64,000 nucleotides of DNA from Terracoccus sp. 273MFTsu3.1. GTDB lineage: Bacteria > Actinomycetota > Actinomycetes > Actinomycetales > Dermatophilaceae. Below are positions 10,060 through 32,262 of this stretch, piece after piece. The translations under genes were made by a program, and so were the position numbers. The notes below the pieces were generated by a model, which was given only the letters and a program-made list of their open reading frames with translations, was not told the origin of the DNA and did no database searches. The stretch lies in NCBI RefSeq assembly GCF_000383675.1, contig NZ_KB911820.1:496001-560000 (forward strand), read 5' to 3'. How positions within the stretch are numbered: position 1 is the stretch's first letter; each line of letters begins with the position of its first letter.

Positions 10060-10077
10060 GGGTCACGGTGTGACGCA
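10041..10077 (+). promoter_or_regulatory. Promoter of the sugar ABC/ebo block, leaderless
   Basis: TTGACG (10041-10046), 17-bp spacer, CACGGT (10064-10069), 7 nt, then ATG at 10077. The -35 match and exact spacing make this the best promoter in the window. No ribosome-binding site precedes the ATG, consistent with a leaderless message. Confidence 0.6.
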
Positions 10078-12691: not shown

Positions 12692-12779
12692 CCGAACGGC
12701 CCGGTCGACAGCAGCACCACCAGCACGGCAGAGCACCACTCACACCGCACCACCCCTCTTCGCTCACATAGGAGTCAGC

Positions 12780-13838: not shown

Positions 13839-13844
13839 CCGGTC

Positions 13845-13879
13845 GGTGCCCGCGCCGCCGCACCGGTGACGCGGGCACC
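13845..13879 (+). terminator. Hairpin after the binding-protein gene
   Basis: GGTGCCCGCG (13845-13854) pairs with CGCGGGCACC (13870-13879) across a 15-nt loop. Such structures after binding-protein genes often stabilise the upstream message or partly terminate it, giving more binding protein than downstream enzymes. Confidence 0.5.
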
Positions 13880-13940
13880 GCACCGCACCCGCAGGACCGA
13901 ACCGTCAGCGGTACCACCCCACGTCGGATGTGAGGACGTC

Positions 13941-15173: not shown

Positions 15174-15231
15174 ACGTTGCGGTGGTGCACCCGACCTCGC
15201 CTGTCAGAAAAGGAGATTCGGCTCAACCGCA

Positions 15232-15237
15232 CGTCTA
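15232..15237 (+). promoter_or_regulatory. Possible internal -10 box
   Basis: TAGTCT at about 15232-15237, in the 96-bp gap before the exported isomerase gene, preceded by an A-rich AAAAGGAGA run. It might give a secondary promoter within the long block. Weak evidence: a hexamer match only. Confidence 0.25.
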
Positions 15238-15269
15238 GTCTCTGTCACCCCCTGAAGGAGCAAGCTCAC

Positions 15270-16385
15270 ATGCACGACAATGACGTCAACCCGCTCAAGC
15301 TCGTCAGCAAGCTCGGCCTCAACCGTCGCCAGTTCTTCGCAGCCACGACCGGCATGGCGGCCGCAGTCGCCATGACCGGGGCCGCCGCGGCCCAGGCCGC
15401 CCCCGGCGCCAACGGCGTCCTCATCCCGGCGCCCCGCCGCGGCATCATCCTCTACACCGTGCGCGATGCCGTCAGCCGCAACCCGCTGACCTCGCCCTAC
15501 GCCTCCGGTTTCAAGGAGGTGCTCACCGAGCTCTCCTCGATCGGCTACCGCCAGATCGAGTTCGCCGGCCTCACCCAGAACGCCAACTCGGAGGGCGGTG
15601 CCAACCTCAACACCGTCGAGGGGGCGACGCTGCTCCGCTCGTGGCTCGACGACCTGGGCCTCCAGGCCGAGGGCAACCACGGCTCCGTCCCGTCGACGAT
15701 CACGGACGCCAACATCGCGGCGTTCGACACGGCCTGCGAGATCGCCAACATCCTCGGCATGGGCCACATCGGCACGGGCAGCGACCCGACGAGCAGCGCC
15801 TACGTCGCCGACTGGGAGGCCGCCGCAGCACGCTGGGACTTCTACGGCGAGCGGGCGTCCCGCCACGGCCTCAAGCTCTACACGCACAACCACGACATCG
15901 CCTACAGCTTCCTGCTCGACAGCGGGCCGCTCGACGCGAACGGCCGGCCGACGCGCTCGTCCGGCATCCGTCGCCTCGAGCACTTCCTCGCCAACACCGA
16001 CCCGAAGCACGTCTATCTCGAGATGGACATCTACTGGGCGCACGTCGCGCAGTACAAGCACAAGACGTACACCGCTCCGGACGGATCGGTCGTCACGTCG
16101 CTCTTCGACCCGGCCGCCGTCGTCGCCGCCCAGACGAACCGCTTCCCGCTCTTCCACGCCAAGGACGGCAAGATCGACACGACGCAGGCCAACGGCTACG
16201 TCATGGCCCCCTTCGGCCAGGGCGACATCGACTACTCGACGTTCCTGCGTCGCGTCGGTGCCAAGGGCTCGCACAACCCGATGTGGGAGATGGACACGGC
16301 ACCGGGCAACGCCACGACGGCCCCGAACCAGTCGATGGAGCTCTCGAAGGTCAGCTACGACAACATGGCCGCCCTTCGCGGCTGA
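15270..16385 (+). CDS. Tat-exported sugar phosphate isomerase/epimerase-like TIM barrel
   Basis: A 371-residue protein with a twin-arginine signal (LNRRQFFAATTG near residue 25, then an Ala-rich hydrophobic stretch to ~AAAAQAAPG). The mature part has the AP-endonuclease-2/xylose-isomerase-like TIM-barrel layout: YTVRDA, GYRQIEFAG, GLKLYTHNHDIAY, YLEMDIYWAH, FHAKDG and a final E/D metal-ligand region. Export by Tat suggests folding with a metal cofactor in the cytosol. Extracellular members in similar loci act on sugars or keto-glycosides rather than phosphates. ATG 15270 follows GAAGGAG (15254-15260). The exact substrate is unknown. Confidence 0.85.
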   Translation: MHDNDVNPLKLVSKLGLNRRQFFAATTGMAAAVAMTGAAAAQAAPGANGVLIPAPRRGIILYTVRDAVSRNPLTSPYASGFKEVLTELSSIGYRQIEFAGLTQNANSEGGANLNTVEGATLLRSWLDDLGLQAEGNHGSVPSTITDANIAAFDTACEIANILGMGHIGTGSDPTSSAYVADWEAAAARWDFYGERASRHGLKLYTHNHDIAYSFLLDSGPLDANGRPTRSSGIRRLEHFLANTDPKHVYLEMDIYWAHVAQYKHKTYTAPDGSVVTSLFDPAAVVAAQTNRFPLFHAKDGKIDTTQANGYVMAPFGQGDIDYSTFLRRVGAKGSHNPMWEMDTAPGNATTAPNQSMELSKVSYDNMAALRG

Positions 16386-16509: not shown

Positions 16510-19500
16510 ATGAATGCTACTTCGCGATCCAGGGCGAGGAGGCTGGTTGCCACAACTGCGGCAGCCGTCCTCGCCTGCACGGCGCTCGGCGCCGTGGCCA
16601 CCCTCCCCGCCCAGGCGCACGACGGGGTCGACCACGGCTCCGAGCCGGCGCTCGACTGGTCGAACTACGAGAAGATCACGCTCACCAAGGACACCGGTGA
16701 GCCGATCGACATGGCCGTGCTGCCCGACCGCCGCGTGCTGACGACCGCCCGCAACGGCGACGTCCGCCTCGTCGACCCCGACACCGGTGTCACCAAGGTG
16801 GTCAACACCCTTCCCGTCTACAACAACTCGGAGGACGGTCTCCAGACCGTCACCATCGACCCCGACTTCGACACGAACAAGTGGGTCTACCTCTACTACG
16901 CACCGCGCACCATGACGGCGCCGTACGTGACGACGACCCCGACCGGGTCGGCGCCGAACAGCCTGCCCGCGGGTGCGGACGCCTCCTACTGGGACCAGTG
17001 GAAGGGCTACAACCAGCTGAGCCGCTTCAGGTGGGACGACGCGGCCGACAAGCTCGACCTCGCGAGCGAGCAGGTCATCCTCAAGGTGGAGACGCAGCGC
17101 GGCCAGTGCTGCCACGTCGCTGGTGACGTCGACTTCGACGCCGACGGCAACCTCTACCTCTCGACCGGTGACAACACGCCGGCGAGCGCGCCGGGCGCCA
17201 ACGGCTTCGCGCCGAACAACAACGCCCCCGGCTTCAACCCGGGCTTCGACTCGCGTCGCGGCGCCGGCAACACGAACGACCTGCGCGGCAAGATCCTGCG
17301 CATCCACCCCGAGGCCGACGGGTCTTACACGATCCCTGCGGGCAACCTCTTCGCGCCGGGCACCGCCAAGACCCGTCCCGAGATCTTCGTCATGGGCGTG
17401 CGCAACCCGTTCCGCATGGACGTCGACCCGGTCACGAACTCCGTCTCGTGGGGCGACTACGGTCCCGACGCCGGCGCCGCCGACCTGCAGCGCGGCCCGA
17501 TGGGCTACGTCGAGTGGCAGACGACGGCGATCACCAAGCCGGTCAACGGCGGCTGGCCGTACTGCCACGGTCCGAACGCCAACTACAACGAGTGGAACTT
17601 CGCGACGGCGACACCCGGTCCGTGGTTCGACTGCGGTGCCGGCGCCAAGAACAACTCGACGTGGAACACCGGTCTCGCCCAGGTGCCCCCGGCCACCGCG
17701 CCGACGCTCTACTACGGCGACAACAACACGCACCAGCCGTGGCCCGAGCTGACCGACTTCGACCCGCAGGGTGGCCAGGGACCGATGGGTGGCCCCGTCT
17801 ACCACTACGACGCGACCAACCCGTCGACGACGAAGTTCCCGGCGTACTGGGACAAGAAGGCGTTCTTCGCCGAGTTCTCGCAGGACTACCTCGCGGTCTT
17901 CGACGTGCAGTGGCCGAACGGACCCGTCGACCACATCCAGCACTTCCTGCCCAACAAGGCCCTCGAGACGAACGGCCAGCCGATCACCGACAGCCCGATC
18001 GACATCGAGTTCGGGCCGGACGGCTCGCTCTACGTCCTCGACTACGGCGACGGCTTCTTCCGGCAGAACCCCGACGCCGGCCTCTACCGCATCGACTACT
18101 CGCCCGGGAACAAGGCACCGCAGGCCAGCATCAAGGCCACCCCGGTGAGCAGCAGCACCGCGCCGCTGACGGTCGCCTTCGACGCGTCCGGCTCGGTCGA
18201 CCCCGAAGGCGGGGCCCTCACCTACGAGTGGGACTTCAACGGTGACGGCACGTTCGACGCGACCGGTGTCACGGCGAGCTACACCTACAGCGAGCTCGGC
18301 AAGTACACGGCGCGACTGCGGGTCACCGACCCACAGGGCCGTCGCGGCCTGACGAGCACGTCGATCAGCGTCGGCAACGTCGCCCCGACCATCACCATCG
18401 CGACGCCGCCCAACGGTGGCTTCTTCGACTGGGGCCAGGCCGTGCCGTTCGACGTCAAGACCTCGGACCCCGAGGACGGCGCCGCGACCGTGTGCTCCCG
18501 CGTCAGCTGGACCTTCGGTCTGGGCCATGACGCGCACGCCCACCCGCTGAGCCAGGGCACGGGCTGCCAGTTCGCGATCCCGACCCCGGCCGATGCGACG
18601 CAGCACGGTGAGACCGAGAACATCTTCGGCGTCGTCGTCATCACCTACACCGACAACGGCGCCAACGGCCTGCCCGGTGCGACCACCACCGAGCAGCTGA
18701 TCCTCAACCCGAAGAAGCAGGAGGCCGAGTGGGCCGACGCGACCCAGGGCGTGGAGATCACGAACGACGACTCGGCGAGCGGCCTGCGCAAGGTCACCTC
18801 GTTCGACGCCGGTGACTGGCTGGCCTGGGACCCGGCGAACCTCGTCGGCGTCACGGGCGTCACGGCCCGCGCCTCCGGCAGCGGCACCCTGTCGCTGCGG
18901 TGGAACTCGCCGACGGCGGCTCCCTTCGGCACCATCGCGGTGAACGGCTCCGGCTGGACCGACGCGGCAGCGACCCTGTCGTCGAAGCCCACCGGCACCG
19001 GGCGGCTCTACGTCACCTCGTCGGGCGGGGTCGTCCTCGACTCCCTCACGTTCGTGGGCAACGGCGTCGCGGATGTCACGCCCCCGGTCGTCTCGGCGAC
19101 GCTGAACCCGGCGACGCCGAACGGAGCGAACGGCTGGTACACGAGCAACGTCACCGTGACGGTCAACGCGACCGACAACGGCACCGTCGCCTCGCGCCAG
19201 CGCTCCACCGACGGCGGGGCCACGTGGGTCAACGCCAACACGGCGCTGACGATCTCGACCGAGGGCACGACGACCGTGCTCTACCGCGCCACCGACAACG
19301 GCGGCAACGTCTCGCAGGTCGGGTCGGTGACGGTCAAGCTCGACAAGACGGCCCCGACCGTCGCGGTCTCCGGCGCGGCTGAGGGGGCGTCCGTCAGCAA
19401 CGCGGGAGACGTCACCTGGACGGCGACGGACGCCACGAGCGGCATCGACTCCGTGACGGCCACCGTCGACGGCGTCGCCGTCGCGGCCAAGCCGCTGGCG

Positions 19501-19851
19501 CTGTGGACGCTCTCGCTCGGGAGCCACACGCTCGTCGTCAAGGCGACCGACAAGGCCGGCCTCGTCACGACGACGACGAGGACGTTCACGACGACGACCT
19601 CCATCCTGTCGCTGACCGCCCTGACGGAGCGGCTGGCCCGTGAGGGCCTGGTCACTCCGGCCGGTGAGAAGGAGCTCGAGAAGCGGCTCCAGCAGGCCGA
19701 GAAGCACGTCGCCGGTGGTCGCACCGCGGCAGCGATCTCGCAGCTCGAGGGCTTCGTCGCAGCAGCGAAGTCCAGCTCCAACGTCCGCGACGCGGCGGCC
19801 TCGGCCGCCCTGCAGCGCGACGCCAACGCGGTCATCGCCTCGCTGCGCTGA
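16510..19851 (+). CDS. Secreted glucose/sorbosone dehydrogenase-type beta-propeller with PKD, carbohydrate-binding and C-terminal helical domains
   Basis: A 1113-residue exported protein. A signal peptide (residues 1-36, ending LPAQAHDG) is followed by a PQQ-type sugar dehydrogenase beta-propeller (~45-535; EDGLQTVTIDPDFD, HVAGDVDFDADGNLYLSTGDN, GVRNPFRMDVDP, SPIDIEFGPDGSLYVLDYGDG). Next come a PKD domain (~540-620; FDASGSVDPEGGALTYEWDFNG split over the core), a jelly-roll carbohydrate-binding-like region (~735-855, EAEWADATQG...), Ig-like repeats with YRATDNGGN, and a C-terminal helical FIMAH-like segment (~1030-1113). It probably oxidises sugars or glycans at the cell surface. ATG 16510 follows AAGGA. 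A longer upstream frame is a GC-rich artefact. Confidence 0.87.
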   Translation: MNATSRSRARRLVATTAAAVLACTALGAVATLPAQAHDGVDHGSEPALDWSNYEKITLTKDTGEPIDMAVLPDRRVLTTARNGDVRLVDPDTGVTKVVNTLPVYNNSEDGLQTVTIDPDFDTNKWVYLYYAPRTMTAPYVTTTPTGSAPNSLPAGADASYWDQWKGYNQLSRFRWDDAADKLDLASEQVILKVETQRGQCCHVAGDVDFDADGNLYLSTGDNTPASAPGANGFAPNNNAPGFNPGFDSRRGAGNTNDLRGKILRIHPEADGSYTIPAGNLFAPGTAKTRPEIFVMGVRNPFRMDVDPVTNSVSWGDYGPDAGAADLQRGPMGYVEWQTTAITKPVNGGWPYCHGPNANYNEWNFATATPGPWFDCGAGAKNNSTWNTGLAQVPPATAPTLYYGDNNTHQPWPELTDFDPQGGQGPMGGPVYHYDATNPSTTKFPAYWDKKAFFAEFSQDYLAVFDVQWPNGPVDHIQHFLPNKALETNGQPITDSPIDIEFGPDGSLYVLDYGDGFFRQNPDAGLYRIDYSPGNKAPQASIKATPVSSSTAPLTVAFDASGSVDPEGGALTYEWDFNGDGTFDATGVTASYTYSELGKYTARLRVTDPQGRRGLTSTSISVGNVAPTITIATPPNGGFFDWGQAVPFDVKTSDPEDGAATVCSRVSWTFGLGHDAHAHPLSQGTGCQFAIPTPADATQHGETENIFGVVVITYTDNGANGLPGATTTEQLILNPKKQEAEWADATQGVEITNDDSASGLRKVTSFDAGDWLAWDPANLVGVTGVTARASGSGTLSLRWNSPTAAPFGTIAVNGSGWTDAAATLSSKPTGTGRLYVTSSGGVVLDSLTFVGNGVADVTPPVVSATLNPATPNGANGWYTSNVTVTVNATDNGTVASRQRSTDGGATWVNANTALTISTEGTTTVLYRATDNGGNVSQVGSVTVKLDKTAPTVAVSGAAEGASVSNAGDVTWTATDATSGIDSVTATVDGVAVAAKPLALWTLSLGSHTLVVKATDKAGLVTTTTRTFTTTTSILSLTALTERLAREGLVTPAGEKELEKRLQQAEKHVAGGRTAAAISQLEGFVAAAKSSSNVRDAAASAALQRDANAVIASLR

Positions 19852-19857
19852 CCCATC

Positions 19858-19903
19858 CCGGTGGCCCGGCGGCGGGCACACGCCCCCGCCGCCGGGCCAC
19901 CGG
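19858..19903 (+). terminator. 19-bp perfect hairpin between the dehydrogenase and the inositol-phosphate synthase
   Basis: CCGGTGGCCCGGCGGCGGG (19858-19876) pairs perfectly with 19885-19903 across an 8-nt loop. No T tract follows. This is the strongest RNA structure inside the 18-kb block. It may terminate most transcripts from the importer promoter or set the ratio between secreted and cytosolic parts of the pathway. Confidence 0.65.
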
Positions 19904-19928
19904 CCCCACCACGTAGAGGAGAACGACC

Positions 19929-21086
19929 ATGACGGACGAACGAACCGGACTCTGGCTCGTCGGCGCGCGCGGCTCGGTCGCCACGACCGTCGCGACCGGC
20001 CTCGCCCTCATCACCGCCGGCGGCGCCGGACCCGACGGCCTCGTCACCGAACAACCCGACCTGGCGGGCGCCGGCCTCGTCGCGCTCGACCACCTCGTCG
20101 TGGGCGGCCACGACGTCGCCGACGTGCCGCTCGTCAAGCGCGCGGCGCAGCTCGCCGACGCCGGCGTCATCCCGCACACGGCCCTCGCGCTCGTCGCCGA
20201 CGAGCTCGACCGCACCTGCAGCCGGATCCGCCACGGGCACCGGGACGCGGAGGAGCGCCAGGCCGATGCCGTCGAGCGGCTGGCCGCCGACATCCGCGAC
20301 TTCGCGCAGGCCGAGTCGCTGACACGCGTCGTCGTCGTCAACGTCAGCTCCACCGAGCCGGTCGTCACCGACGACCCCGCTCACGCCTCTCTCGACGCGC
20401 TCGAGCAGGCCTGGGCCGCAGGGGAGTCCCCGCTCCCACCGAGCGCCGTCTACGCGGCGGCCGCGTTCATGGCCGGCGCCGCCTTCGTCGACTTCACCCC
20501 CTCGACGGGCGCGCGCCTGCCGGCGCTCGAGCAGCTGGCCGTGCGCCATGGCGTGCCGTGGGGCGGGAGCGACGGCAAGACGGGCGAGACGCTCGTCAAG
20601 TCGGTCCTCGCGCCGATGTTCGCAGCGCGCTCGCTCCGGGTCCGTTCCTGGGCCGGCACGAACCTCCTCGGAGGCGGTGACGGTGCCACGCTCGCCGATC
20701 CGGAGGCGATGGAGAGCAAGGCCCGCAGCAAGGCCCGCGGCCTCGAGGCCATGCTCGGTCACCCCGTCGACAGCCCCGTCCACATCGACAACATCGCCGA
20801 CCTCGGGGACTGGAAGACGGCCTGGGACCACCTGACCTTCTCCGGCTTCCTCGGCACGCGGATGTCGATGCAGTTCACGTGGCAGGGCTGCGACTCGAGC
20901 CTCGCCGCGCCGCTCGTCATCGACCTGGCCCGCCTCGCCGACCTCGCGCTCCGGCGTGGCGAGGTGGGGCCGCTGCCGGCGCTCGGCTTCTTCTTCAAGG
21001 ACCCCGTGGGCTCCGACGAGCACCGCCTCTTCGAGCAGCAGCGGGTGCTGACCGCATGGGCGACGGAGCGGGCGACGGCGTCGTGA
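19929..21086 (+). CDS. myo-Inositol-1-phosphate synthase family protein
   Basis: A 385-residue NAD-dependent cyclase. It starts with a Rossmann motif (LVGARGSVATT) and shows the family core in order: VVVNVSSTE, PPSAVYAAAAFMAGAAFVDFTPS, GSDGKTGETLVKSVLAPMF, SWAGTNLLGGGDG, and DWKTAWDHLTFSGFLG. The usual LGN-x-DG tetrad is varied to LGGGDG. It should convert glucose-6-phosphate (or a related sugar phosphate) to an inositol phosphate. It is the first gene of a run of overlapping genes typical of ebo loci, standing where ebo operons carry EboD, another sugar-phosphate cyclase. ATG 19929 follows GAGGAGAA. Its stop overlaps the next GTG (GTGA). Confidence 0.88.
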   Translation: MTDERTGLWLVGARGSVATTVATGLALITAGGAGPDGLVTEQPDLAGAGLVALDHLVVGGHDVADVPLVKRAAQLADAGVIPHTALALVADELDRTCSRIRHGHRDAEERQADAVERLAADIRDFAQAESLTRVVVVNVSSTEPVVTDDPAHASLDALEQAWAAGESPLPPSAVYAAAAFMAGAAFVDFTPSTGARLPALEQLAVRHGVPWGGSDGKTGETLVKSVLAPMFAARSLRVRSWAGTNLLGGGDGATLADPEAMESKARSKARGLEAMLGHPVDSPVHIDNIADLGDWKTAWDHLTFSGFLGTRMSMQFTWQGCDSSLAAPLVIDLARLADLALRRGEVGPLPALGFFFKDPVGSDEHRLFEQQRVLTAWATERATAS

Positions 21087-21979
21087 CGACCCTGCGCGAC
21101 CTCGTGGAGCTGGTGCGTGCACCGGCCGCCCTCACCGTGCCCGGCGACACCCTCGCGGGTGCGGCGAGCGCGGGGTGGCCGGCCGGCGCGCGCTCAGCGG
21201 CGCTTCCGGTCGCGTCGACGTGCCTCTATTGGGCGGGGATGGCGCTCAACGACTGGGCCGACCGGCGCACGGACGCCGTCGAGCGCCCCGAGCGACCCAT
21301 CCCGTCCGGCCGCGTACCGGCGCGCACCGCACTCGCCGTCGCCACCGGCCTCACCGCCACCGGCGTCGCCGTTGCCGCGGCCGCCGGTGGTCGTCGCTCG
21401 GCCGCCACGGCCGCGGTGCTCGCGGCGGCGGTCTGGGCCTACGACCTGTCCCCCAAGCAGGGGCCGCTCAGCGTCGCGACGATGGCCTCGACCCGAGGGC
21501 TCGACGTGCTCCTCGGCGCGAGCGCGGGCGGACTGCCCGGTCTGCGGGCCGCGGCCGTCCCGGCCGCGCTCGTCGCCGTGCACACGGCCGGGGTGACGGC
21601 CTTGAGTCGCGGTGAGGTCCACGGCGGATCCACCGGTGTGGCCCGGGCCTGCGTCGCCGCGACGGTGCTCGTCGCCTCGGCATCCGCCCTGCGGTCGGTC
21701 CCTGCCGCCGGTCGTGGACGCGCCGGGGGAGCGCTCGGCGCCGCGCTCTCCGTGGCCCTCACGGGGGCGTATGCCGTGAGCGTCCTCCGTGCCCAGCTGC
21801 CCGCCGCGCGCACCCCCGATGCCGGCACGGTGCGCCGGGCCACGGGCGCCGGCATCCGCGGCCTCGTGCCGCTCCAGAGCGCGGCTCTCGCGGCGACCGG
21901 CCACCATGCGGCTGCCCTCGGTCTCGTCGCGTCCGCACCGGTCGGTGCGGCGGCCATGAGGCGGGTGTCGGCGACATGA
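21083..21979 (+). CDS. UbiA-family prenyltransferase, EboC/SCO3242 type
   Basis: A 298-residue membrane protein with about 7-9 hydrophobic segments and the first aspartate-rich UbiA motif in the form NDWADRRTD (near residue 56), then ERPERPIPSGRV, both diagnostic of UbiA enzymes. A weaker second site is AYDLSPKQG (near 117). UbiA proteins transfer prenyl chains to an acceptor at the membrane. Actinobacterial homologues of this type are named after SCO3242 and correspond to EboC of ebo clusters. It is coupled by GTGA to the cyclase and by ATGA to the next gene. The prenyl donor and acceptor are unknown. A prenylated cyclitol is an inference from the context. Confidence 0.83.
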   Translation: MTTLRDLVELVRAPAALTVPGDTLAGAASAGWPAGARSAALPVASTCLYWAGMALNDWADRRTDAVERPERPIPSGRVPARTALAVATGLTATGVAVAAAAGGRRSAATAAVLAAAVWAYDLSPKQGPLSVATMASTRGLDVLLGASAGGLPGLRAAAVPAALVAVHTAGVTALSRGEVHGGSTGVARACVAATVLVASASALRSVPAAGRGRAGGALGAALSVALTGAYAVSVLRAQLPAARTPDAGTVRRATGAGIRGLVPLQSAALAATGHHAAALGLVASAPVGAAAMRRVSAT

Positions 21980-22830
21980 GCCTGCGTTTCGGCTACGGCC
22001 TCAACGGCTTCACCGACCATCGGCTCGATGACGCGCTCGCGCTCCTCGCCGACCTCGGCTACGACGGTGTCGCCCTGACCCTCGACCACGCCCACCTCGA
22101 CCCCTTCGCGCCCGACCTGGCCGGCCGCACGGCCCGGGTCGGGGCCCTGTTGGAGCGTTACGGACTCGCCGTCGTCGTCGAGACCGGTGCGCGCTACGTG
22201 CTCGACCCTCGTCACAAGCACGAGCCGACGCTCGTGTCCCAGGCCGGTCGCGAGCGACGGATCGACCTGCTGGAGAGGGCGATCCGTGTCGCAGCGGAGC
22301 TCGGCTCGCCCGCCGTGTCCTTCTGGAGCGGCATCGCCCCCCGTGGCACGAGCCGGGACGAGCTCTGGGCCCGTGTCGAGGCCGGCGTCAGCGCCCTGCT
22401 GCCCGTCGCCGAGTCCCATGGCGTCGACCTCGCCCTCGAGCCGGAGCCGGGCATGGTCGTCGAGCGCATCGCCGACGTGCTCGAGCTGCGGCGCCGACTC
22501 GGCTCGCCCGACCGGCTGCGCCTGACCGTCGACGTCGGTCACCTGCGCTGCACCGAGGACGTCGAACCGGCGGCCTGTGTGCTCGGTGCGGGTGACCTCG
22601 TCGCCAACGTCCAGATCGACGACATGCGGCGCGGCGTCCACGAGCACCTGCCCTTCGGGGAGGGCGAGGTGGACTTCCCGCCCGTGCTCGCCGCGCTCGA
22701 GGCCGTCGAGTTCACCGGCCTCGTCGCCGTCGAGCTGCCCCGCCACTCGCACGCCGCTCCGTCGCTCGCGGCGTCGAGCCTCGCGTTCCTGCGCGAGGCC
22801 GCCCGACGACCCCAGGAGGTGGGCCGATGA
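21976..22830 (+). CDS. Sugar phosphate isomerase/epimerase-like TIM barrel
   Basis: A 284-residue cytosolic AP-endonuclease-2-like TIM barrel: FGYGLNGFTDHRLDDAL at the start, GYDGVALTLDH, the metal-ligand phrases ALEPEPGMV (E), TVDVGHLRC (D/H), VQIDDMRRGVHEHLPFGEG (D, H) and a terminal VAVELPRH (E). Members isomerise or epimerise sugars and inosose-type compounds (IolE/IolI relatives). ATGA overlap with the prenyltransferase and ATGA overlap with the EboA gene place it firmly in the operon. Substrate unknown. Confidence 0.82.
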   Translation: MSLRFGYGLNGFTDHRLDDALALLADLGYDGVALTLDHAHLDPFAPDLAGRTARVGALLERYGLAVVVETGARYVLDPRHKHEPTLVSQAGRERRIDLLERAIRVAAELGSPAVSFWSGIAPRGTSRDELWARVEAGVSALLPVAESHGVDLALEPEPGMVVERIADVLELRRRLGSPDRLRLTVDVGHLRCTEDVEPAACVLGAGDLVANVQIDDMRRGVHEHLPFGEGEVDFPPVLAALEAVEFTGLVAVELPRHSHAAPSLAASSLAFLREAARRPQEVGR

Positions 22831-23402
22831 GCCCCGTGACCACGCAGGACGCGATCGCCGAGGTGGCGTCCGACCCCACGAGCCTCGACCGGCTCTTCCC
22901 CGCGGCCGCCCGCACCGCGGCCCGCGAGGGTCTCGACGGCGACGCCGCACGCGAGGCGCTGCTGCTCGCGGTGCCCGGCCCGGCGGCATACGTCATCGAC
23001 GCCGTGCGTCGCGTCTACGACCACGGCGACGCGGCCGAGCGGCGCGCCGTCCTGCTCGCGCTGCCCGCCCTCGACGCGCCCGGACGCCCCAACGCCATCG
23101 GGGACGCAGCGCTCCCCATCGTGCGGGACGCCCTGCGCACCAACGACACCCGCCTGGTCGCCGCCGCCCTCGGGCCGTATGCCGCCGTGTACCTCGACGC
23201 CGACGCGTGGCGCCAGGCGGTGCTCAAGGTCCTCTTCACCGGCATCCCCGTCGAGCAGGTCGCCGGCCTCGCCGACCGCGCCGACGCCGAGCTGGCCCGC
23301 ATGGTGCGCGACTACGCCGCCGAGCGCGAGGCCGCCGGTCGCGTCGTGCCCCCGGACGCCCGAACGGTCCTCGACCTCTCCCTTGCCCACCGAGCCGACT
23401 GA
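22827..23402 (+). CDS. eboA: EboA-domain protein
   Basis: A 191-residue all-helical, HEAT-like protein (Ala/Leu/Arg-rich helices; GDAAERRAVLLALPAL, LRTNDTRLVAAALGPYAA, WRQAVLKVLFTGIPV) matching the EboA family in size, composition and position. EboA has no established biochemical activity. It is a marker of ebo loci, which in cyanobacteria are needed to move a scytonemin precursor to the periplasm. It overlaps the upstream isomerase gene (ATGA) and lies 9 bp before the EboB-like gene. Assignment is by locus logic plus protein pattern, so moderately firm. Confidence 0.75.
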   Translation: MSPVTTQDAIAEVASDPTSLDRLFPAAARTAAREGLDGDAAREALLLAVPGPAAYVIDAVRRVYDHGDAAERRAVLLALPALDAPGRPNAIGDAALPIVRDALRTNDTRLVAAALGPYAAVYLDADAWRQAVLKVLFTGIPVEQVAGLADRADAELARMVRDYAAEREAAGRVVPPDARTVLDLSLAHRAD

Positions 23403-23411
23403 GGAGCAGCC

Positions 23412-24299
23412 GTGCGCATCTTCGACCCCCACATCCACATGACGTCCCGCACGACCGACGACTACCAGCGCATGCACGCCGCCGGGGTCCGCGCCGTCGT
23501 CGAGCCCTCCTTCTGGCTCGGCCAGCCGCGCACGAGCGTCGGCTCCTTCTGCGACTACTTCGACGCGCTCCTCGGGTGGGAGCCGTTCCGGGCCTCGCAG
23601 TACGGCATCGCTCACCACGCGACGATCGGCCTCAACCCCAAGGAGGCCAACGACGCCCGGTGTCGCGAGGTGCTCGACGTCCTGCCCCGCTATCTCGCCA
23701 AGGACCGCGTCGTCGCCGTCGGCGAGCTCGGCTACGACTCGATGACCCCGGAGGAGGACGACGTCTTCGCGGTCCAGCTCGCGCTCGCCGCCGAGCACGA
23801 GCTGCCCGCCCTCGTGCACACGCCGCACCGGGACAAGCTCCCCGGCACGCGGCGCACCCTCGACGTCGTGCGCGAGTCGGCGCTCGAGCCGGGCGCCGTC
23901 CTCGTCGACCACCTCAACGAGATGACGGTCGGTGTCGTGGCCGAGTCCGGTTGCTGGATGGGCTTCTCCGTCTACCCGGACACGAAGATGGACGAGCACC
24001 GGATGGTCGAGATCCTCCGCCGCTACGGCCTCGACCGGATGATCGTCAACTCGGCCGCGGACTGGGGCAACAGCGACCCGCTCAAGACCCGACGCGTGGC
24101 CGAGACGATGCTCGCCGCGGGCTACACGGCCGACGACGTCGACCGGGTGCTGTGGCGCAACCCCGTCGAGTTCTACGGCCAGAGCGGTCGCCTCGAGCTG
24201 CCCGAGACGGACTCGCCGGTCGAGACCGAGCCGGGTGACCTCGTCGGGGCCGGTGCGACGTTCATGGGCAACTCCGTGCTCCGCGGCGCGAGGGAGTGA
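23412..24299 (+). CDS. eboB: TatD-family metal hydrolase, EboB type
   Basis: A 295-residue amidohydrolase-fold protein with the metal-binding HxH (DPHIHMTSR, residues 5-9 region), GELGYDS (metal-bridging E), VHTPH and VDHLNE (His ligands), and NSAADWG (catalytic D). TatD relatives hydrolyse phosphodiesters or amides, and the EboB branch has unknown substrates. It starts with GTG at 23412 after GGAG and is separated from EboE by only 3 bp. Its family and position between EboA and EboE agree with ebo clusters elsewhere. Confidence 0.82.
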   Translation: MRIFDPHIHMTSRTTDDYQRMHAAGVRAVVEPSFWLGQPRTSVGSFCDYFDALLGWEPFRASQYGIAHHATIGLNPKEANDARCREVLDVLPRYLAKDRVVAVGELGYDSMTPEEDDVFAVQLALAAEHELPALVHTPHRDKLPGTRRTLDVVRESALEPGAVLVDHLNEMTVGVVAESGCWMGFSVYPDTKMDEHRMVEILRRYGLDRMIVNSAADWGNSDPLKTRRVAETMLAAGYTADDVDRVLWRNPVEFYGQSGRLELPETDSPVETEPGDLVGAGATFMGNSVLRGARE

Positions 24300-24302
24300 G
24301 CC

Positions 24303-25502
24303 GTGCGCCTGCTCCACGCCGACGGCCAGACCGTCCACGTCGCCTACTGCACCAACGTCCACCCGGGTGAGGACCTCGACACGATCATCGGGCAGCTCGA
24401 CCGCTTCGCCCTGCCCGTGCGCCACCACCTCGGCGCAGACCTCCTCGGTCTCGGTCTCTGGCTGAGCGCCCCGGTCGCCCGTGGTCTCGCCGACGACCCG
24501 CGCCAGACGGACCGGCTCCGCGCAGCCCTCGACGAGCGGGGTCTCGAGGTCGTCACCCTCAACGGCTTCCCCTACCGCGGCTTCCAGGACGAGGTCGTCA
24601 AGCACCGCGTCTACCACCCGGACTGGACCGAGCCGGCCCGCCTCGCCTACACGACCGACCTCACCGAGGTGCTCGCCCGCCTGCTGCCCGACGACGCCGC
24701 GCGGGGCAGCATCTCGACGCTCCCCCTCGGGTGGCGGCACCCGTGGTTCGGCGACCGGCAGGTCCTCGCCGCCGAGCAGCTCGACCGGCTCGCCGACCAC
24801 CTCCACGCGCTGCGTGACCGCACCGGACGCGAGATCCGCGTCGGCCTCGAGCCCGAGCCCGGCTGCGTCATCGAGACGACGACCGAGCTCGTCGACCGGA
24901 TGGCGGGCTGGGACGAGGAGGTGCTGGGGGTCTGCCTCGACCTCTGCCACCTCGCGGTCGGCTTCGAGGACGCGGCCGTCGCCGTGCCCCGGCTCGCCGC
25001 CGCCGGTCGCCGGGTCGTCAAGGCCCAGGTGTCCGCCGCGCTCCAGGTCGACCATCCCGGTGACCCGGCCACCCGCGAGGCGCTCGCGGCCTTCGACGAG
25101 GACCGCTTCCTGCACCAGACCCGCTCGCCCGGCCAGCCGGGTGAGGGCCACCTGCTGCGCGCCCGTGACGACCTCGGCGACGCCCTCGGTGGCCCGCGCC
25201 CCCTCGACCCGTGCCCGGGTGGCACCGAGCGGCCGTGGCGGGTCCACTTCCACGTGCCGCTCGACCACGCGCCCGAGCCGCCGCTCTCCGCGACGACCTT
25301 CGACCTTCAGCACTCGCTCGACGTCCTCGTCGGCGGCGACACCGCCCTGACCGACCACCTCGAGGTGGAGACCTACACGTGGACCGTCGTCCCCGAGGCG
25401 GTGCGCCCGACCGACGACGCCGCCCTCGCCGTGAGCATCGCCGGCGAGCTCGCCTGGCTCCGCGACACCCTCATCGACCTCGGCCTCAAGGAGTCCGCAT
25501 GA
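24303..25502 (+). CDS. eboE: EboE-like TIM-barrel protein (metabolite traffic protein EboE)
   Basis: A 399-residue protein opening with VAYCTNVHPGEDLDTII, the signature N-terminus of EboE, then a xylose-isomerase-like TIM barrel: VVTLNGFPYRGF, ISTLPLGWRHPW, VGLEPEPGCVIETT, GVCLDLCHLAVGFED, VKAQVSAALQV and WRVHFHVPLDH. EboE is annotated as a metabolite-traffic protein from its part in scytonemin-precursor export in cyanobacteria. The reaction is unknown, but conserved E/D/H residues imply a metal-dependent sugar-like substrate. GTG start at 24303. Its stop overlaps the phosphodiesterase-family start (ATGA). Confidence 0.85.
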   Translation: MRLLHADGQTVHVAYCTNVHPGEDLDTIIGQLDRFALPVRHHLGADLLGLGLWLSAPVARGLADDPRQTDRLRAALDERGLEVVTLNGFPYRGFQDEVVKHRVYHPDWTEPARLAYTTDLTEVLARLLPDDAARGSISTLPLGWRHPWFGDRQVLAAEQLDRLADHLHALRDRTGREIRVGLEPEPGCVIETTTELVDRMAGWDEEVLGVCLDLCHLAVGFEDAAVAVPRLAAAGRRVVKAQVSAALQVDHPGDPATREALAAFDEDRFLHQTRSPGQPGEGHLLRARDDLGDALGGPRPLDPCPGGTERPWRVHFHVPLDHAPEPPLSATTFDLQHSLDVLVGGDTALTDHLEVETYTWTVVPEAVRPTDDAALAVSIAGELAWLRDTLIDLGLKESA

Positions 25503-26905
25503 CCACCCCGAACACCGTGCCCACGAAGGTGCTCCTCCTCGACGTCGTCGGCCTGACGCCGCGCGCGCTCGCCGACATGCCGCGACTGCGCCGCCTGGCC
25601 GGGTCCGGCTGGCAGTCGTCGCTCGAGACCGTGCTGCCCGCCGTCACGTGCTCCGTGCAGTCGACGATGCTCACCGGCCGCCCTGTCGCCGACCACGGCG
25701 CCGTCGGCAACGGCTGGTACTTCCGCGACCTCGGCGACGTGTTCCTCTGGCGTCAGCACAACGCGCTCGTCGAGGGCGAGAAGGTCTGGCACGCCCTGCG
25801 CCGCGCGCACCCCGGAGCCCGCGTCGCCAACGTCTGCTGGTGGTACGCCATGGGCATGGACGTGGACTCGATCGTCACGCCGCGCCCGATCTACCACGCC
25901 GACGGGCGCAAGTCGCCCGACTGCTACACGCGCCCTGCCGCGCTGCACGACCGCCTCACGGAGCGGCTCGGTGACTTCCCGCTCTTCCACTACTGGGGTC
26001 CCACGGCGTCGATCGCGTCGTCGCGCTGGATCATCGAGGCGACCCGCATCCTGCTGCCCGAGCACGACCTGACCCTGTCCTACGTGCCGCACCTCGACTA
26101 CGACCTCCAGCGCTTCGGACCGGAGTCGCCCGAGGCCCGCGCCGCGGCGCGCGAGCTCGACGCCGCCCTGACGCCGCTGCTCGACGACGCCGAGCGGCTC
26201 GGCGTCAGCGTGGTGGTCGTCAGCGAGTACGGCATCACCGCCGTCGACCAGCCCGTCGACGTCAACCGGGTGCTGCGCCGGGCCGGGCTGCTCGAGGTCC
26301 ACACCCAGGCCGGGATGGAGTACCTCGACCCGTGGGCGTCCGACGCCTTCGCCGTCGCCGACCACCAGGTCGCCCACGTCTACGTGCGCGACCCCGCCCG
26401 CCTCGACGAGGTCCGTGCGGTCCTCGCGGCGACCCCCGGCGTCGAGCAGGTGCTCGACCGGGCCGGCCAGGCGGCATACGGCCTCGACCACGAGCGCAGC
26501 GGCGACCTCGTCCTCGTCGCCGAGCCACGCGCGTGGTTTACCTACTACTACTGGCTCGACGACGAGCGCGCGCCCGACTTCGCCCGCGGCGTCGAGATCC
26601 ACCGCAAGCCCGGCTACGACCCCGCCGAGCTCTTCTTCGACCCCGCCGACCGCTCCGCCAAGGCGCGGGCCGGGCTCGGGCTCGTGCGCAAGAAGCTCGG
26701 CCTGCGGTATGCCATGAAGGTCGTCCCGCTCGACCCGCGGTGGGTGCGCGGCAGCCACGGACGGCTGCCCGCGGACCCCGCGGACGGACCCGTCGTCATC
26801 GCCTCCGACGCGAGCCTGCGCCGTGAGACGGTGGCGGCAGCCGACGTGCACGACCTCGTCCTCGAGGCTGCCGGCGTCCCCGTTGTCGCAGCCGCCCACC
26901 ACTGA
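25499..26905 (+). CDS. Alkaline phosphatase-superfamily nucleotide pyrophosphatase/phosphodiesterase (EboF-like)
   Basis: A 468-residue protein of the type I phosphodiesterase/nucleotide pyrophosphatase group: metal site DVVGLTP near residue 15, nucleophile Thr in [16 protein letters not shown] (T near 49), [15 protein letters not shown], then [15 protein letters not shown] (D/H metal ligands), VVVSEYGI and [11 protein letters not shown]. No signal peptide is visible. It would cleave a phosphoester or pyrophosphate bond of a metabolite. In ebo operons such a protein closes the set (EboF). ATG 25499 overlaps the EboE stop. The next gene starts 32 bp after its stop. Confidence 0.82.
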
Positions 26906-26937: not shown

Positions 26938-27948
26938 ATGGCTCGACCGATCACGCTCTTCACCGGACAGTGGGCCGACCTGCCCTTCGAGGAGGTGTGC
27001 CGCCTCGCAGGGGAGTGGGGCTACGACGGTCTCGAGATCGCCTGCTGGGGCGACCACTTCGAGGTCGACCGGGCCCTGTCCGAGGACGGCTACATCGAGT
27101 CACGACGGGAGATCCTCGAGCGCCACGGCCTCCAGGTCTGGGCCATCTCGAACCACCTCGTCGGCCAGGCGGTCTGCGACGACCCCATCGACCAGCGCCA
27201 CCGGGACATCCTGCCCTCGGCCGTCTGGGGCGACGGCGACCCCGAGGGGGTGCGGCAGCGCGCGGCCGAGCGGATGGCCGACACGGCCCGCGCCGCGGCG
27301 AAGCTCGGCGTCGACACCGTCATCGGCTTCACCGGGTCGGCGATCTGGAAGTACGTCGCGATGTTCCCGCCCGTGGGCGACGACGTCATCCAGGCGGGCT
27401 ACGCCGACTTCGCCCGACGCTGGAACCCGATCCTCGACGTCTTCGACGAGGTGGGCGTGAAGTTCGCCCACGAGGTGCACCCGAGCGAGATCGCGTACGA
27501 CTACTGGAGCACCGTCGCGACGCTCGAGGCGATCGGGCACCGCGAGGCGTTCGGACTCAACTGGGACCCGAGCCACATGGTGTGGCAGGACCTCGACCCG
27601 GCCGGCTTCATCTGGGACTTCAAGGACCGGATCTACCACGTCGACTGCAAGGACACCCGCAAACGGATCGGCAACGGCCGCAACGGTCGTCTCGGCTCGC
27701 ACCTGCCGTGGGGCGACCCGCGCCGCGGCTGGGACTTCGTGTCGACGGGTCACGGCGACGTGCCGTGGGAGGACTGCTTCCGCACCCTCAACGCGATCGG
27801 CTACGACGGCCCGATCTCCATCGAGTGGGAGGACGCCGGCATGGACCGTCTCGTCGGTGCACCGGGCGCGCTCGAGTACGTCCGGGGCCTCAACTTCGAG
27901 CGCCCGACCGCCTCCTTCGACGCGGCCTTCAGCAGCAACAAGGACTGA
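26938..27948 (+). CDS. Sugar phosphate isomerase/epimerase-like TIM barrel
   Basis: A 336-residue TIM barrel, the third of this superfamily in the block (besides EboE). Landmarks are the [17 protein letters not shown] opening, [40 protein letters not shown] (E/H ligands), [11 protein letters not shown] (D/H), YHVDCKDT (D) and [12 protein letters not shown] (E). Such proteins often act with Gfo/Idh dehydrogenases as inosose isomerases or as lyases on keto-sugars. A clear ribosome site (AAGGAG) precedes ATG 26938. It closes the 10-28 kb co-oriented block, with the next gene having its own promoter. Confidence 0.85.
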
Positions 27949-30066: not shown

Positions 30067-31311
30067 ATGACGGTCTCGGGCGCGGACATCGCGCGGGTCT
30101 TCCGCGCCGAGCACGGCCGTGCGGTGTCCGTGCTCATCCGGGCGCTCGGTGACATCGACCTCGCCGAGGACGCCGTCCAGGACGCGTTCACCGTGGCCGT
30201 GGAGCGCTGGCCCCGCGACGGTATGCCGCCCAGTCCCGCCGGCTGGATCATCACGACCGCGCGGCGCCGGGCCATCGACCGGCTGCGGCGGGAGGCGACG
30301 CGGGAGGCCCGGCACACGGAGGCGCTCGCCCTGTACGCCGCCGAGGAGAACACCGCTGCGACGCAGGAGGGACCCGTGAAGGACGAACGACTGCGCCTCG
30401 TCTTCACCTGCTGCCACCCCGCCCTCTCCCGGGAGGCCCAGATCGCGCTGACGCTCCGGCTGCTGGGCGGCCTGACGACCCCCGAGATCGCGCACGCCTT
30501 CCTCGTGCCGGAGTCGACGATGGCCCAGCGGATCGTCCGGGCCAAGAGCAAGATCCGCTCGGCCGGCATCCCCTACCGGGTGCCGCGCGACGAGGATCTG
30601 CCCGCCCGGCTCGCCTCGGTCCTCTCCGTGCTGTACCTCGTCTTCACCGAGGGCCACACCGCCACCGCCGGTGCCGACCTCGGCAGACCGGACCTCGCAG
30701 CCGAGGCGATACGGCTGACCCGGGTGCTCGTCGAGCTGATGCCCGACGAGCCGGAGGCCACCGGCCTGCTGGCCCTCATGCTGCTGACGGAGGCCCGGCG
30801 CGCGGCGCGCACGGACGCAGCCGGCGAGCTCGTCGTCCTCGCGGAGCAGGACCGCTCCCTCTGGGACCGTGCGCTCGTCGACGAGGGGCAGGCGCTGGTC
30901 CGCCGGTGCCTGCGGCGCGGCGCGCCCGGCCCGTACCAGCTGCAGGCCGCGATCAACGCCGTGCACACCGATGCCTCGACCGCGGCCGAGACCGACTGGT
31001 CCCAGGTCGTCGCGCTCTACGACCACCTGCTGCGCCTCGCGCCGACCGACGTCGTGCGGCTCAACCGGGCCGTCGCCGTCGCCGAGCTCGACGGTCCGCA
31101 GGCCGCGCTCGCCCTCCTCGACGGACTGGACCTCGACGGCTACGTCGCCTTCCACGTCGTGCGGGCCGAGCTGCTCGGTCGCCTCGCGCGGTGGCCCGAG
31201 TCGGCCACCGAGTGGGACCGGGCCGCCGGGCTCAGCGACAACGAGCCCGAGTCGCGCCACCTCCTGGCCCGTGCCGCCGGAGCTGCCGCGCGGACAGGTG
31301 ACCGGCGGTAA
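30067..31311 (+). CDS. ECF42-group RNA polymerase sigma factor with C-terminal extension
   Basis: A 414-residue protein. Sigma region 2 spans ~8-75 (RVFRAEHGRAVSVLIRALGDIDLAEDAVQDAF, AGWIITTARRRAIDRLRR), region 4 ~110-175 (LRLVFTCCHPALSREAQIALTLRLLGGL, then VPESTMAQRIVRAKSKIR). The remaining ~230 residues form a helical, TPR-like extension (DUF6596 type) that defines ECF42 and is needed for activity in studied members. No anti-sigma gene is adjacent. It should activate the TGTCGA promoter in front of its own DGPF partner. Its stop codon TAA is part of the -10 box of the next gene. Confidence 0.88.
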   Translation: MTVSGADIARVFRAEHGRAVSVLIRALGDIDLAEDAVQDAFTVAVERWPRDGMPPSPAGWIITTARRRAIDRLRREATREARHTEALALYAAEENTAATQEGPVKDERLRLVFTCCHPALSREAQIALTLRLLGGLTTPEIAHAFLVPESTMAQRIVRAKSKIRSAGIPYRVPRDEDLPARLASVLSVLYLVFTEGHTATAGADLGRPDLAAEAIRLTRVLVELMPDEPEATGLLALMLLTEARRAARTDAAGELVVLAEQDRSLWDRALVDEGQALVRRCLRRGAPGPYQLQAAINAVHTDASTAAETDWSQVVALYDHLLRLAPTDVVRLNRAVAVAELDGPQAALALLDGLDLDGYVAFHVVRAELLGRLARWPESATEWDRAAGLSDNEPESRHLLARAAGAAARTGDRR

Positions 31312-31321
31312 CCTGCCGTCA
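31309..31321 (+). promoter_or_regulatory. Leaderless promoter -10 box of the alpha/beta hydrolase gene
   Basis: TAACCT at 31309-31314 (its TAA is the sigma-factor stop codon), 6 nt before ATG 31321. Confidence 0.5.
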
Positions 31322-32262
31322 TGACGACCCCGCCGTCCACCGCACCGACCGACATCGCGTCCAAGTGGGGAGGGGTCGGCCGCACCATCGACCTCGACGG
31401 CCCCGTCCACTGGGTCGACTTCGGCGGCCCGGACGCGGATCCGGGGACGCCCGAGGCACCGCCGGTCGTCCTCGTCCACGGTCTGGGCGGCTCGCACCTC
31501 AACTGGGTCGCCGTCGCACCGGCGCTCGCCGCGCGTCGCCGGGTCGTCGCCATCGACCTGCCGGGCTTCGGGCTGAGCCCGGCCCTCGGTCGTGCGACGA
31601 GCGTCAACCACAACGCGGCTCTGCTGAGCCGCTTCGTCCACGAGGTGCTCGGCCGCCCCGTCGTCCTCGTCGGCAACTCGATGGGCGGCATGGTGAGCCT
31701 GCTGCTCGCCGACCGTCGCCCCGAACAGGTCGTGGGCCTCGCGCTCGTCGACCCCGCGCTGCCCAACCCCGGCGCGCGCCCCGACCCGCAGGTCGCCGCC
31801 ACCTTCGCGATGTATGCCGTGCCGCGCGTCGGCGAGCTCGTGCTGACCCGCTACAACAAGAGCGTCTCGGACCGACAGCGCGTGCTCGGCACCGTGGCAC
31901 TGTGCTTCGCCGACCCGTCACGCGCCGACGACGACGTCGTCGAGGCCGGGATCGAGCTCGCCGCCTGGCGCCGGTCGCTCCCGGACCCCGAGGGCGAGTT
32001 CCTCGGTGCGGCACGGTCCCTGCTGCGGGTGCTCCGTGGTCGGCGTGAGTACGACCGCATCATGCGTGACCTGGACCGTCCCGTCCTGCTCATCCACGGC
32101 ACCCGCGACCGTCTCGTGCCCGTCTCGGCCGCCCGCCGCGCTGCCCGGCTCAACCCGGCCTGGCGCACGGCCTGGCTCGACGGGATGGGGCACACACCCC
32201 AGCTCGAGGCGCCCGACGACGTGCTCGGGCACCTCGAGCCCTGGCTCGACTCCCTCGGCTGA
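31321..32262 (+). CDS. Alpha/beta hydrolase
   Basis: A 313-residue cytosolic hydrolase. Oxyanion motif VLVHGLGGSHLNW lies near residue 52, nucleophile GNSMGGM near 120, acid HGTRDRLVP near 262 and catalytic His GMGHTPQLE near 288, so the triad is complete. The fold resembles hydrolases of the MhpC/BphD and proline-iminopeptidase type. The substrate is unknown. It has its own leaderless promoter rather than reading only from the sigma operon. Confidence 0.83.
   Translation: MTTPPSTAPTDIASKWGGVGRTIDLDGPVHWVDFGGPDADPGTPEAPPVVLVHGLGGSHLNWVAVAPALAARRRVVAIDLPGFGLSPALGRATSVNHNAALLSRFVHEVLGRPVVLVGNSMGGMVSLLLADRRPEQVVGLALVDPALPNPGARPDPQVAATFAMYAVPRVGELVLTRYNKSVSDRQRVLGTVALCFADPSRADDDVVEAGIELAAWRRSLPDPEGEFLGAARSLLRVLRGRREYDRIMRDLDRPVLLIHGTRDRLVPVSAARRAARLNPAWRTAWLDGMGHTPQLEAPDDVLGHLEPWLDSLG

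Follow-up and report, generated by a model that had tools for sequence, protein, structure and literature searches.

Evidence that an inositol-3-phosphate synthase stands in for EboD in ebo-like clusters of Actinomycetes

We describe a cluster of seven genes in Terracoccus sp. 273MFTsu3.1 (Actinomycetota; Actinomycetes; Dermatophilaceae) in which, on strong comparative support, an inositol-3-phosphate synthase (INO1) stands in for the cyclase EboD of the ebo operon. The cluster occupies positions 19929-26905 on the + strand of the window, by which we mean the whole stretch of 64,000 nucleotides that was analysed (RefSeq assembly GCF_000383675.1, contig NZ_KB911820.1, positions 496,001 to 560,000). 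The canonical operon, eboA-F, was reportedly treated by Yurchenko et al. in 2016 and by Klicki et al. in 2018. It likewise brings together EboA, EboB, EboE and EboF with a prenyltransferase of the UbiA superfamily and one sugar-phosphate cyclase in an operon (PMC5133447, PMC6282210; excerpts), whereas the window has INO1 rather than EboD, a UbiA protein of the SCO3242 family and an extra TIM barrel.

The genes follow one another as INO1-UbiA-TIM-EboA-EboB-EboE-EboF (Table 1), adjoining genes either overlapping by 4 bases or leaving gaps of 3-9 bases, and all seven were found where an earlier note, made from the letters of the window, had placed them. The EboA and EboE profiles on which that note had staked its reading both match over cut-off (NF035938, NF035939), while the narrower EboA_family model NF035937 gave 77.9 bits, under its cut-off of 320. 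EboB was identified through PF01026, as no dedicated EboB model matched. The last gene had been read as a phosphodiesterase of the alkaline phosphatase superfamily; the family was right, and its identity as EboF had been missed. Taken as an ebo operon, the cluster therefore has members of EboA, EboB, EboE and EboF and none of EboC or EboD. Variants without EboA have been accepted as ebo in PMC5133447 (excerpt).

The source genome (4.94 Mb in 18 contigs, stated completeness 100) holds a single gene of the 3-dehydroquinate (DHQ) synthase family, flanked by aroC-/aroK-like and aroQ-like genes (names read from translations). Since it sits among aro genes it is aroB, so that the genome has no eboD; a separate eboD elsewhere, a possibility raised in the earlier note, is thereby ruled out. 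There are two INO1 genes, the window copy and a distant copy read as mycothiol type. The window INO1 is not the mycothiol enzyme, as it reached 46.4 bits on the mycothiol model TIGR03450 (cut-off 638) and the mycothiol-type INO1 is a separate gene. Elsewhere, on contig C9 (locus L053, 9586-10806), the source genome encodes another EboE (429.9 bits) that has no further ebo genes around it; its operon includes an IolM-like dehydrogenase (213 bits, under the cut-off of 450), a VOC protein, an M24 peptidase, E1-alpha and E1-beta, an E2-like protein, an FMN dehydrogenase and an aldehyde dehydrogenase. The idea of a second full ebo cluster is thus ruled out, this EboE being a lone paralogue in another operon.

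The substitution extends across the class. Across the phylum (396 genomes), a first scan had given 17 genomes with an SCO3242 prenyltransferase over cut-off; EboE reached E<=1e-20 in 19 genomes and passed its cut-off in 18. The class census covered 394 genomes and located EboE over the NF035939 cut-off at 95 places in 90 genomes; it left out 17 weaker partial EboE matches, and the three of these that were inspected had no other ebo gene beside them. When the 95 places were compared by tblastn with the window proteins, two EboD proteins and the source-genome AroB, 89 proved to be ebo clusters and six to be lone EboE genes (the source-genome paralogue and five others, four of which were included in the tree and group with it). 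INO1 was present in 82 of the 89 clusters, and neither EboD nor AroB was detected in any of the 89 fetched stretches. EboA and EboB were found in all 89, EboF in 88, UbiA in 85 and the TIM barrel in 83, with one cluster (L169) reduced to INO1-EboA-EboB-EboE. Because the order seen in the window recurs in 77 of the 89, in one case with EboF followed by another TIM barrel, the seven-gene arrangement is neither due to chance nor a one-off, and the INO1 form is the usual form of ebo in the class. TIM barrel and EboA share one reading frame in five of 83 clusters (L154, L187, L207, L217 and L050). These resemble the TIM-EboA hybrid proteins noted in Actinobacteria and in planctomycetes without eboD, for which the excerpt of PMC5133447 makes no connection to INO1.

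The seven clusters without a full INO1 all belong to genomes that have an ebo-type INO1 elsewhere (246-451 bits). Three (L163, L194, L195) are cut by a contig end; the INO1 of these genomes is on a different contig, and in two of them no more than 320 bases separate it from the contig start. Two more (L042, L155) are second ebo clusters, and both genomes hold a full ebo-type INO1 elsewhere; in these clusters a FAD-dehydrogenase-like gene, read from its N-terminus, precedes UbiA in place of INO1 (L042, 9912-11333; L155, 13834-15255). An otherwise normal cluster (L159) carries ahead of UbiA an INO1 truncated to about its first 100 residues (14385-14657), with a full INO1 on another contig; an assembly gap is ruled out as the cause, the run of N lying elsewhere. 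The last (L189) has no INO1 in the cluster and a full ebo-type gene elsewhere in the genome.

As controls we took ten EboD-type loci, one from the same phylum and nine from plasmids of Proteobacteria, Deinococcus and one member of the Bacteroidota. With the same queries EboD was found in all ten and INO1 in none; the phylum-mate with EboD (G381) gave a weak INO1 match of 48.6 bits. In a collection of 134 loci with EboE at >=100 bits (130 distinct EboE proteins), which outside the class is a non-random sample and in which four loci entered twice, 106 had INO1 only (102 distinct), ten EboD only, 18 neither and none both. The survey of gene neighbourhoods that the earlier note had called for thus came out as it had proposed, with the linkage of INO1 to the other genes conserved in the class.

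The prenyltransferase and the third gene mark the INO1 form as well. The window UbiA scored 338.7 bits on the SCO3242 model (cut-off 260) and 125.9 bits on the EboC model NF035940 (cut-off 250), which makes it an EboC homologue of a separate, curated family; its description as UbiA/EboC was right as to homology and wrong as to membership. An EboC from the Bacteroidota control (Aureibacter, L232) showed the reverse scores (SCO3242 104.4, EboC 342.5). Neither cut-off was reached by UbiA from three EboD-type clusters (two proteobacterial, one Deinococcus) or from two haloarchaea; since EboD-type proteins are among those that fall short, the EboC model is narrower than the operon. On the model for geranylgeranylglycerol-phosphate geranylgeranyltransferase the window protein reached 56.9 bits (cut-off 296). 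Its first Asp motif, NDxxDxxx[D/E/N], is kept in all 114 INO1-type proteins (110 distinct). RxxD/NxxxG occurs in 113 of the 114 and in three of ten EboD-type proteins, a difference that we did not use as evidence because Arg142/Asp145 are described in Nostoc EboC too (PMC6282210, excerpt). The third gene had been called a TIM-barrel isomerase; the barrel stands, and its profile is closest to MJ1311, UlaE and other sugar epimerases. It is an addition to the operon: relatives occur in 83 of 89 census clusters and, at >=45 bits, in none of the ten EboD-type loci, which corrects the earlier picture. The SCO3242-family UbiA and the extra TIM barrel go with INO1, a pairing that the earlier note had missed, as it had the prevalence of this form in the class and the linkage to secreted beta-propeller proteins described below.

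It is very unlikely, in our estimation, that UbiA prenylates an aromatic or other cargo directly while INO1 gives inositol for, for example, mycothiol or phosphatidylinositol. The EboC relative Ubi-297 does farnesylate the aromatic 8-HQA in vitro (PMC9235831, excerpt). Yet the source genome has its separate mycothiol-type INO1, which would make another INO1 fixed in the ebo slot superfluous, and INO1 and EboD are mutually exclusive in the loci examined.

The best solved relative of the window INO1 is Archaeoglobus fulgidus MIPS (1u1i, 212 bits), compared with 51.8 bits to the enzyme of a five-membered ring (6k96) and 49.9 to 1gr0. The A. fulgidus enzyme is of the same INO1 subtype and, to our knowledge, not part of an ebo-like cluster. 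Counted from the alignment with 1u1i, seven residues whose catalytic roles we take as given (N255, D261, K274, K278, K306, D332 and K367) are identical in the two proteins and invariant in all 111 ebo-linked INO1 proteins (107 distinct). As they are also invariant in 63 of 63 other INO1 proteins of the family and in the mycothiol-type copy of the source genome, they show an intact active site and not a special product. Family and active site together suggest that INO1 closes glucose 6-phosphate to inositol phosphate. That it makes a different cyclitol phosphate, for instance one with a five-membered ring, to be passed on into the ebo route is highly doubtful: the fold is capable of it, 6k96 being an INO1 homologue, but the window protein lies far closer to the A. 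fulgidus enzyme.

Residues E183, E185, D213, H216, H315, H317 and E356 of EboE are kept in all 34 aligned rows and look like a metal site. The EboE profile found IolI (1i60, E 1.5e-5) as its best match in the PDB, and an AlphaFold2 model (pLDDT 94.5) gave sugar phosphate isomerases, 3-epimerases and xylose isomerase as best Foldseek matches. Among the 50 matches listed, E ranged from 1.1e-8 to 2.2e-6 and the query TM-score from 0.44 to 0.51 at 11-16% identity, values that indicate the fold class and not the substrate.

Outside the class the parts of the cluster occur in other combinations. A scan of genome contigs for INO1, with an alignment led by a Gemmatirosa protein, confirmed 590 loci, the best 80 of which came from Planctomycetota, Gemmatimonadota, Myxococcota, Nitrospira, haloarchaea, Actinomycetota, a Rokubacteria metagenome-assembled genome (MAG) and others. 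In quick trees with SH-aLRT support, the actinobacterial rows of INO1 formed a single clade of 32 among 102 rows (98%), with the Rokubacteria row adjoining (91%), and all 33 are in ebo clusters save two on short contigs where UbiA alone is visible. Actinobacterial EboB shares a branch with seven of the ten EboD-type EboB proteins, and actinobacterial and EboD-type EboF together with two from Gemmatimonadota make up a single branch of 30 (97%). Two Gemmatimonadota loci (L055, L060) encode EboE, EboB, EboF, UbiA, INO1 and a TIM barrel; EboA was not found in them, and L060 has its EboE split in two. In the trees, EboE, EboB and EboF of both loci are placed among proteins of the EboD type, whereas UbiA joins those of the actinobacterial SCO3242 type (support 84). 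Since they pair INO1, UbiA and the TIM barrel with EboD-lineage partners, this mosaic suggests that the three may have been exchanged as one unit.

Five haloarchaeal plasmid INO1 genes were listed and four inspected: three (L054, L235, L236) have UbiA, two TIM barrels, EboB and EboF, without EboA or EboE, and the fourth (L237) has no ebo neighbours. In Natronococcus (L236) a further TIM barrel and a pyrroloquinoline quinone (PQQ) sugar dehydrogenase lie downstream of the cluster. Halorussus shows both situations, a haloarchaeal-type cluster without EboA and EboE (L097) and an INO1 without such neighbours (L077). Nitrospira (L128) and a Proteobacteria MAG (L071) have the same set as the haloarchaea, and L092 has INO1, one TIM barrel, EboB and UbiA. 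Planctomycete INO1 loci are mostly without ebo neighbours, with TIM barrel and UbiA present in L079, L083 and L093. Among 27 INO1-bearing genomes of several phyla, EboE was over cut-off in 12, mostly Planctomycetota, each time by itself in the stretch fetched; no EboD-like gene scored above 145 bits in these 12, which is a weak test of exclusion between INO1 and EboD. In five planctomycete loci without EboE (L061, L091, L096, L104, L112), INO1 has an aroB-like gene, best matched by AroB and not EboD, at a distance of up to about 10 kb.

We consider it about as probable as not (roughly 50%) that INO1, with its own UbiA and TIM barrel, takes the place of EboD and EboC in providing the cyclitol head group of a prenylated lipid, which probably serves export. 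The argument for replacement is that unrelated sugar-phosphate cyclases hold the same slot, INO1 in the census clusters and EboD in the controls. A shared core of EboA, EboB, EboE and EboF would be fed by a different head-group module in each form, the role being filled by EboD and EboC in the EboD form. In the INO1 form, inositol phosphate would be formed from glucose 6-phosphate in the cytoplasm, and the membrane-bound UbiA might then add a prenyl chain to the cyclitol phosphate or its product, a step proposed because an enzyme prenylating the hydroxyl of glycerol phosphate is found among its nearest named relatives. The extra TIM barrel and EboE could adjust the cyclitol by rearranging the ring or a sugar, EboF and EboB may hydrolyse a phosphate or another bond, and EboA may hold the enzymes together, as a published proposal and the TIM-EboA fusions suggest. 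The resulting prenylated cyclitol, bound to the membrane, would most likely serve the export of other small molecules or extracytoplasmic chemistry on them. The ebo genes of Nostoc are reported to serve export in scytonemin formation, and a cyclitol lipid carrier has been proposed there (PMC6282210, excerpt), as has an isoprenoid-cyclitol product of the EboD form (PMC5133447, excerpt). INO1 in the EboD slot supports the cyclitol part of these proposals from an independent direction.

Table 1. Features of the window around the INO1-ebo cluster, with profile scores in bits
Feature	Position	Strand	Profile matches and remarks
Sugar-type ABC transporter (ATPase, permease, binding protein)	10077-13838	+ (same strand)	Upstream of dehydrogenase, TIM barrel, propeller and ebo genes
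Gfo/Idh/MocA sugar dehydrogenase	13941-15173	+	PF22725/PF01408; relative >=100 bits in 16/89 clusters
TIM barrel with twin-arginine-like signal (reading of N-terminus)	15177-16385	+	PF01261 53.9; relative >=100 bits in 30/89 clusters
GSDH beta-propeller (PKD, CBM6, FIMAH)	16513-19851	+	PF07995 104.5, PF18911, PF03422, PF22888; directly upstream of INO1
Hairpin with 19-bp stem	19858-19903	+	Between beta-propeller gene and INO1
INO1	19929-21086	+	385 aa; archaeal-type inositol-3-phosphate synthase family; PF07994 166.3, PF01658 109.4
UbiA prenyltransferase (SCO3242 family, EboC homologue)	21083-21979	+	NF045897 338.7 (cut-off 260); GTG start overlaps INO1 stop
TIM barrel, xylose-isomerase-like	21976-22830	+	PF01261 150.3
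EboA-domain protein	22827-23402	+	NF035938 170.6 (cut-off 50)
EboB, TatD-like metal hydrolase	23412-24299	+	PF01026 57.9 (cut-off 27)
EboE, TIM barrel with isomerase/epimerase-like fold	24303-25502	+	NF035939 418 (cut-off 250)
EboF, type I phosphodiesterase / nucleotide pyrophosphatase family	25499-26905	+	PF01663 207.4 (cut-off 23)
Second sugar-isomerase-like TIM barrel (TIM2)	26938-27948	+	PF01261 143; relative >=100 bits in 39/89 clusters

The genes on either side of the cluster give room for two further readings. The first, that the cluster is catabolic, taking up and breaking down a sugar or cyclitol with INO1 giving an intermediate, we regard as unlikely. The sugar-type ABC transporter, the Gfo/Idh dehydrogenase (375.3 bits on the levoglucosan dehydrogenase model, under its cut-off of 650) and four TIM barrels nearby would suit it, and so would the alcohol-dehydrogenase, E1/E2-like and aldehyde dehydrogenase genes around the lone EboE of the source genome, the BMP-type ABC genes that adjoin two haloarchaeal clusters and the Gfo/Idh genes that precede one EboD-type cluster. 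However, INO1 and a prenyltransferase are biosynthetic rather than degradative, and on Streptomyces plasmids the same cassette is found in nonribosomal peptide synthetase (NRPS), type II polyketide synthase (PKS) and aromatic-prenyltransferase neighbourhoods.

The second concerns the protein directly upstream of INO1, a glucose/sorbosone-dehydrogenase (GSDH) beta-propeller that, as its N-terminus reads, appears to be secreted. A GSDH propeller relative (tblastn, >=100 bits) accompanies 54 of the 89 clusters, upstream in 47 of the 54 and on the same strand in 47 of the 54. About 1.3 would be expected, given 101 PF07995 matches in about 135.5 Mb of 20 hand-picked genomes; the observed count comes from tblastn and the expected one from Pfam searches, which are different methods. 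By our comparison of positions, 17 of these 20 genomes have an EboE cluster no more than about 10 kb from a PF07995 match. Five annotated Streptomyces plasmid loci carry the INO1-ebo cassette; in three, with mutually similar neighbourhoods, a gene of the ScyD/ScyE family, named after scytonemin proteins, comes directly before INO1, and in the other two the cassette stands beside NRPS or type II PKS genes. Such linkage raises the idea of the ebo product serving secreted beta-propeller oxidoreductases of the GSDH and ScyD/ScyE type as their membrane cofactor or redox carrier instead of carrying cargo, an idea that the PQQ-dependent dehydrogenases beside the Natronococcus cluster and after the EboD-type cluster of Salipiger would also favour. 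We nonetheless hold it to be quite unlikely, since 35 of the 89 clusters have no GSDH gene in the fetched stretch and 33 have relatives of neither GSDH nor ScyD/E, GSDH genes in the same genomes are for the most part found at other places (101 in 20 genomes), and linkage is not function.

Some smaller observations belong to the same surroundings. The region of the hairpin between the beta-propeller gene and INO1 (19850-19930) folds at -50.4 kcal/mol (z -5.98), none of 200 shuffles being as stable, and no T run follows the hairpin. Downstream of the cluster, 30067-31311 encodes an ECF-type sigma factor with DUF6596 and 31321-32262 an alpha/beta hydrolase. Two Streptomyces plasmids (L225, L227) have similar type II PKS neighbourhoods, one with a full INO1-ebo cassette and the other with eboE only. 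In Salipiger (L229) the PQQ-dependent dehydrogenase gene lies at 13193-15340, two genes past the EboD-type ebo cluster.

Several points weigh against INO1 supplying the head group of an exported lipid. The lone EboE of the source genome sits in a catabolic-looking operon, and sugar ABC-transporter and sugar-dehydrogenase genes precede the cluster in the window. Two genomes (L159, L189) keep INO1 apart from an otherwise normal ebo cluster, and the haloarchaeal and Nitrospira versions do without EboA and EboE. Given that Ubi-297 farnesylates an aromatic compound, the acceptor of UbiA may not be a cyclitol. Finally, the acceptor, the product and its transport are all inferred from sequence; the earlier suggestion that the operon makes and moves a prenylated cyclitol fits the data as far as the kept active-site residues of INO1 go, and beyond them stays conditional on these three steps. 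A wider proposal is tentative and, on balance, unlikely: in bacteria and haloarchaea the two ebo forms might produce prenylated cyclitol lipids of an unrecognized class, whose heads are interchangeable (inositol type through INO1, C7 type through EboD) and which could act as general membrane carriers or cofactors, both for oxidoreductases of the secreted beta-propeller kind and for extracytoplasmic steps in natural-product formation.

The gene families concerned are already annotated by NCBI, and the INO1 variant itself appears undescribed, no description of this form of ebo having been found in the open-licence PMC literature searched. A text search of the ebo papers PMC5133447, PMC6282210 and PMC9235831 did not find the word 'inositol'. 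Of the Streptomyces coelicolor pair SCO3242-SCO3243, the first names the family of the window UbiA and the second is annotated as myo-inositol phosphate synthase; the region presumably carries all seven genes. Both are counted among the genes of the calcium-dependent antibiotic (CDA) cluster, which the excerpt of PMC3610822 does not describe as an ebo system. Saccharomonospora has been reported with an ebo cluster (PMC9235831, excerpt), and the excerpt of PMC3326630 on the endophenazine cluster does not mention inositol.

In summary, the presence of two non-homologous ring-closing enzymes in the same slot argues from comparison, and independently of homology, for a cyclitol as the starting point of the pathway. 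The product of ebo clusters has been an open question since they were named, and the INO1 form bears directly on it. With this form the question can also be put to ordinary Streptomyces, in which isotopic inositol could label an inositol-derived product, and the link to a secreted beta-propeller provides a concrete candidate partner for the ebo system. Our data suggest that many actinobacteria may make an inositol-derived prenyl lipid that has so far not been looked for.

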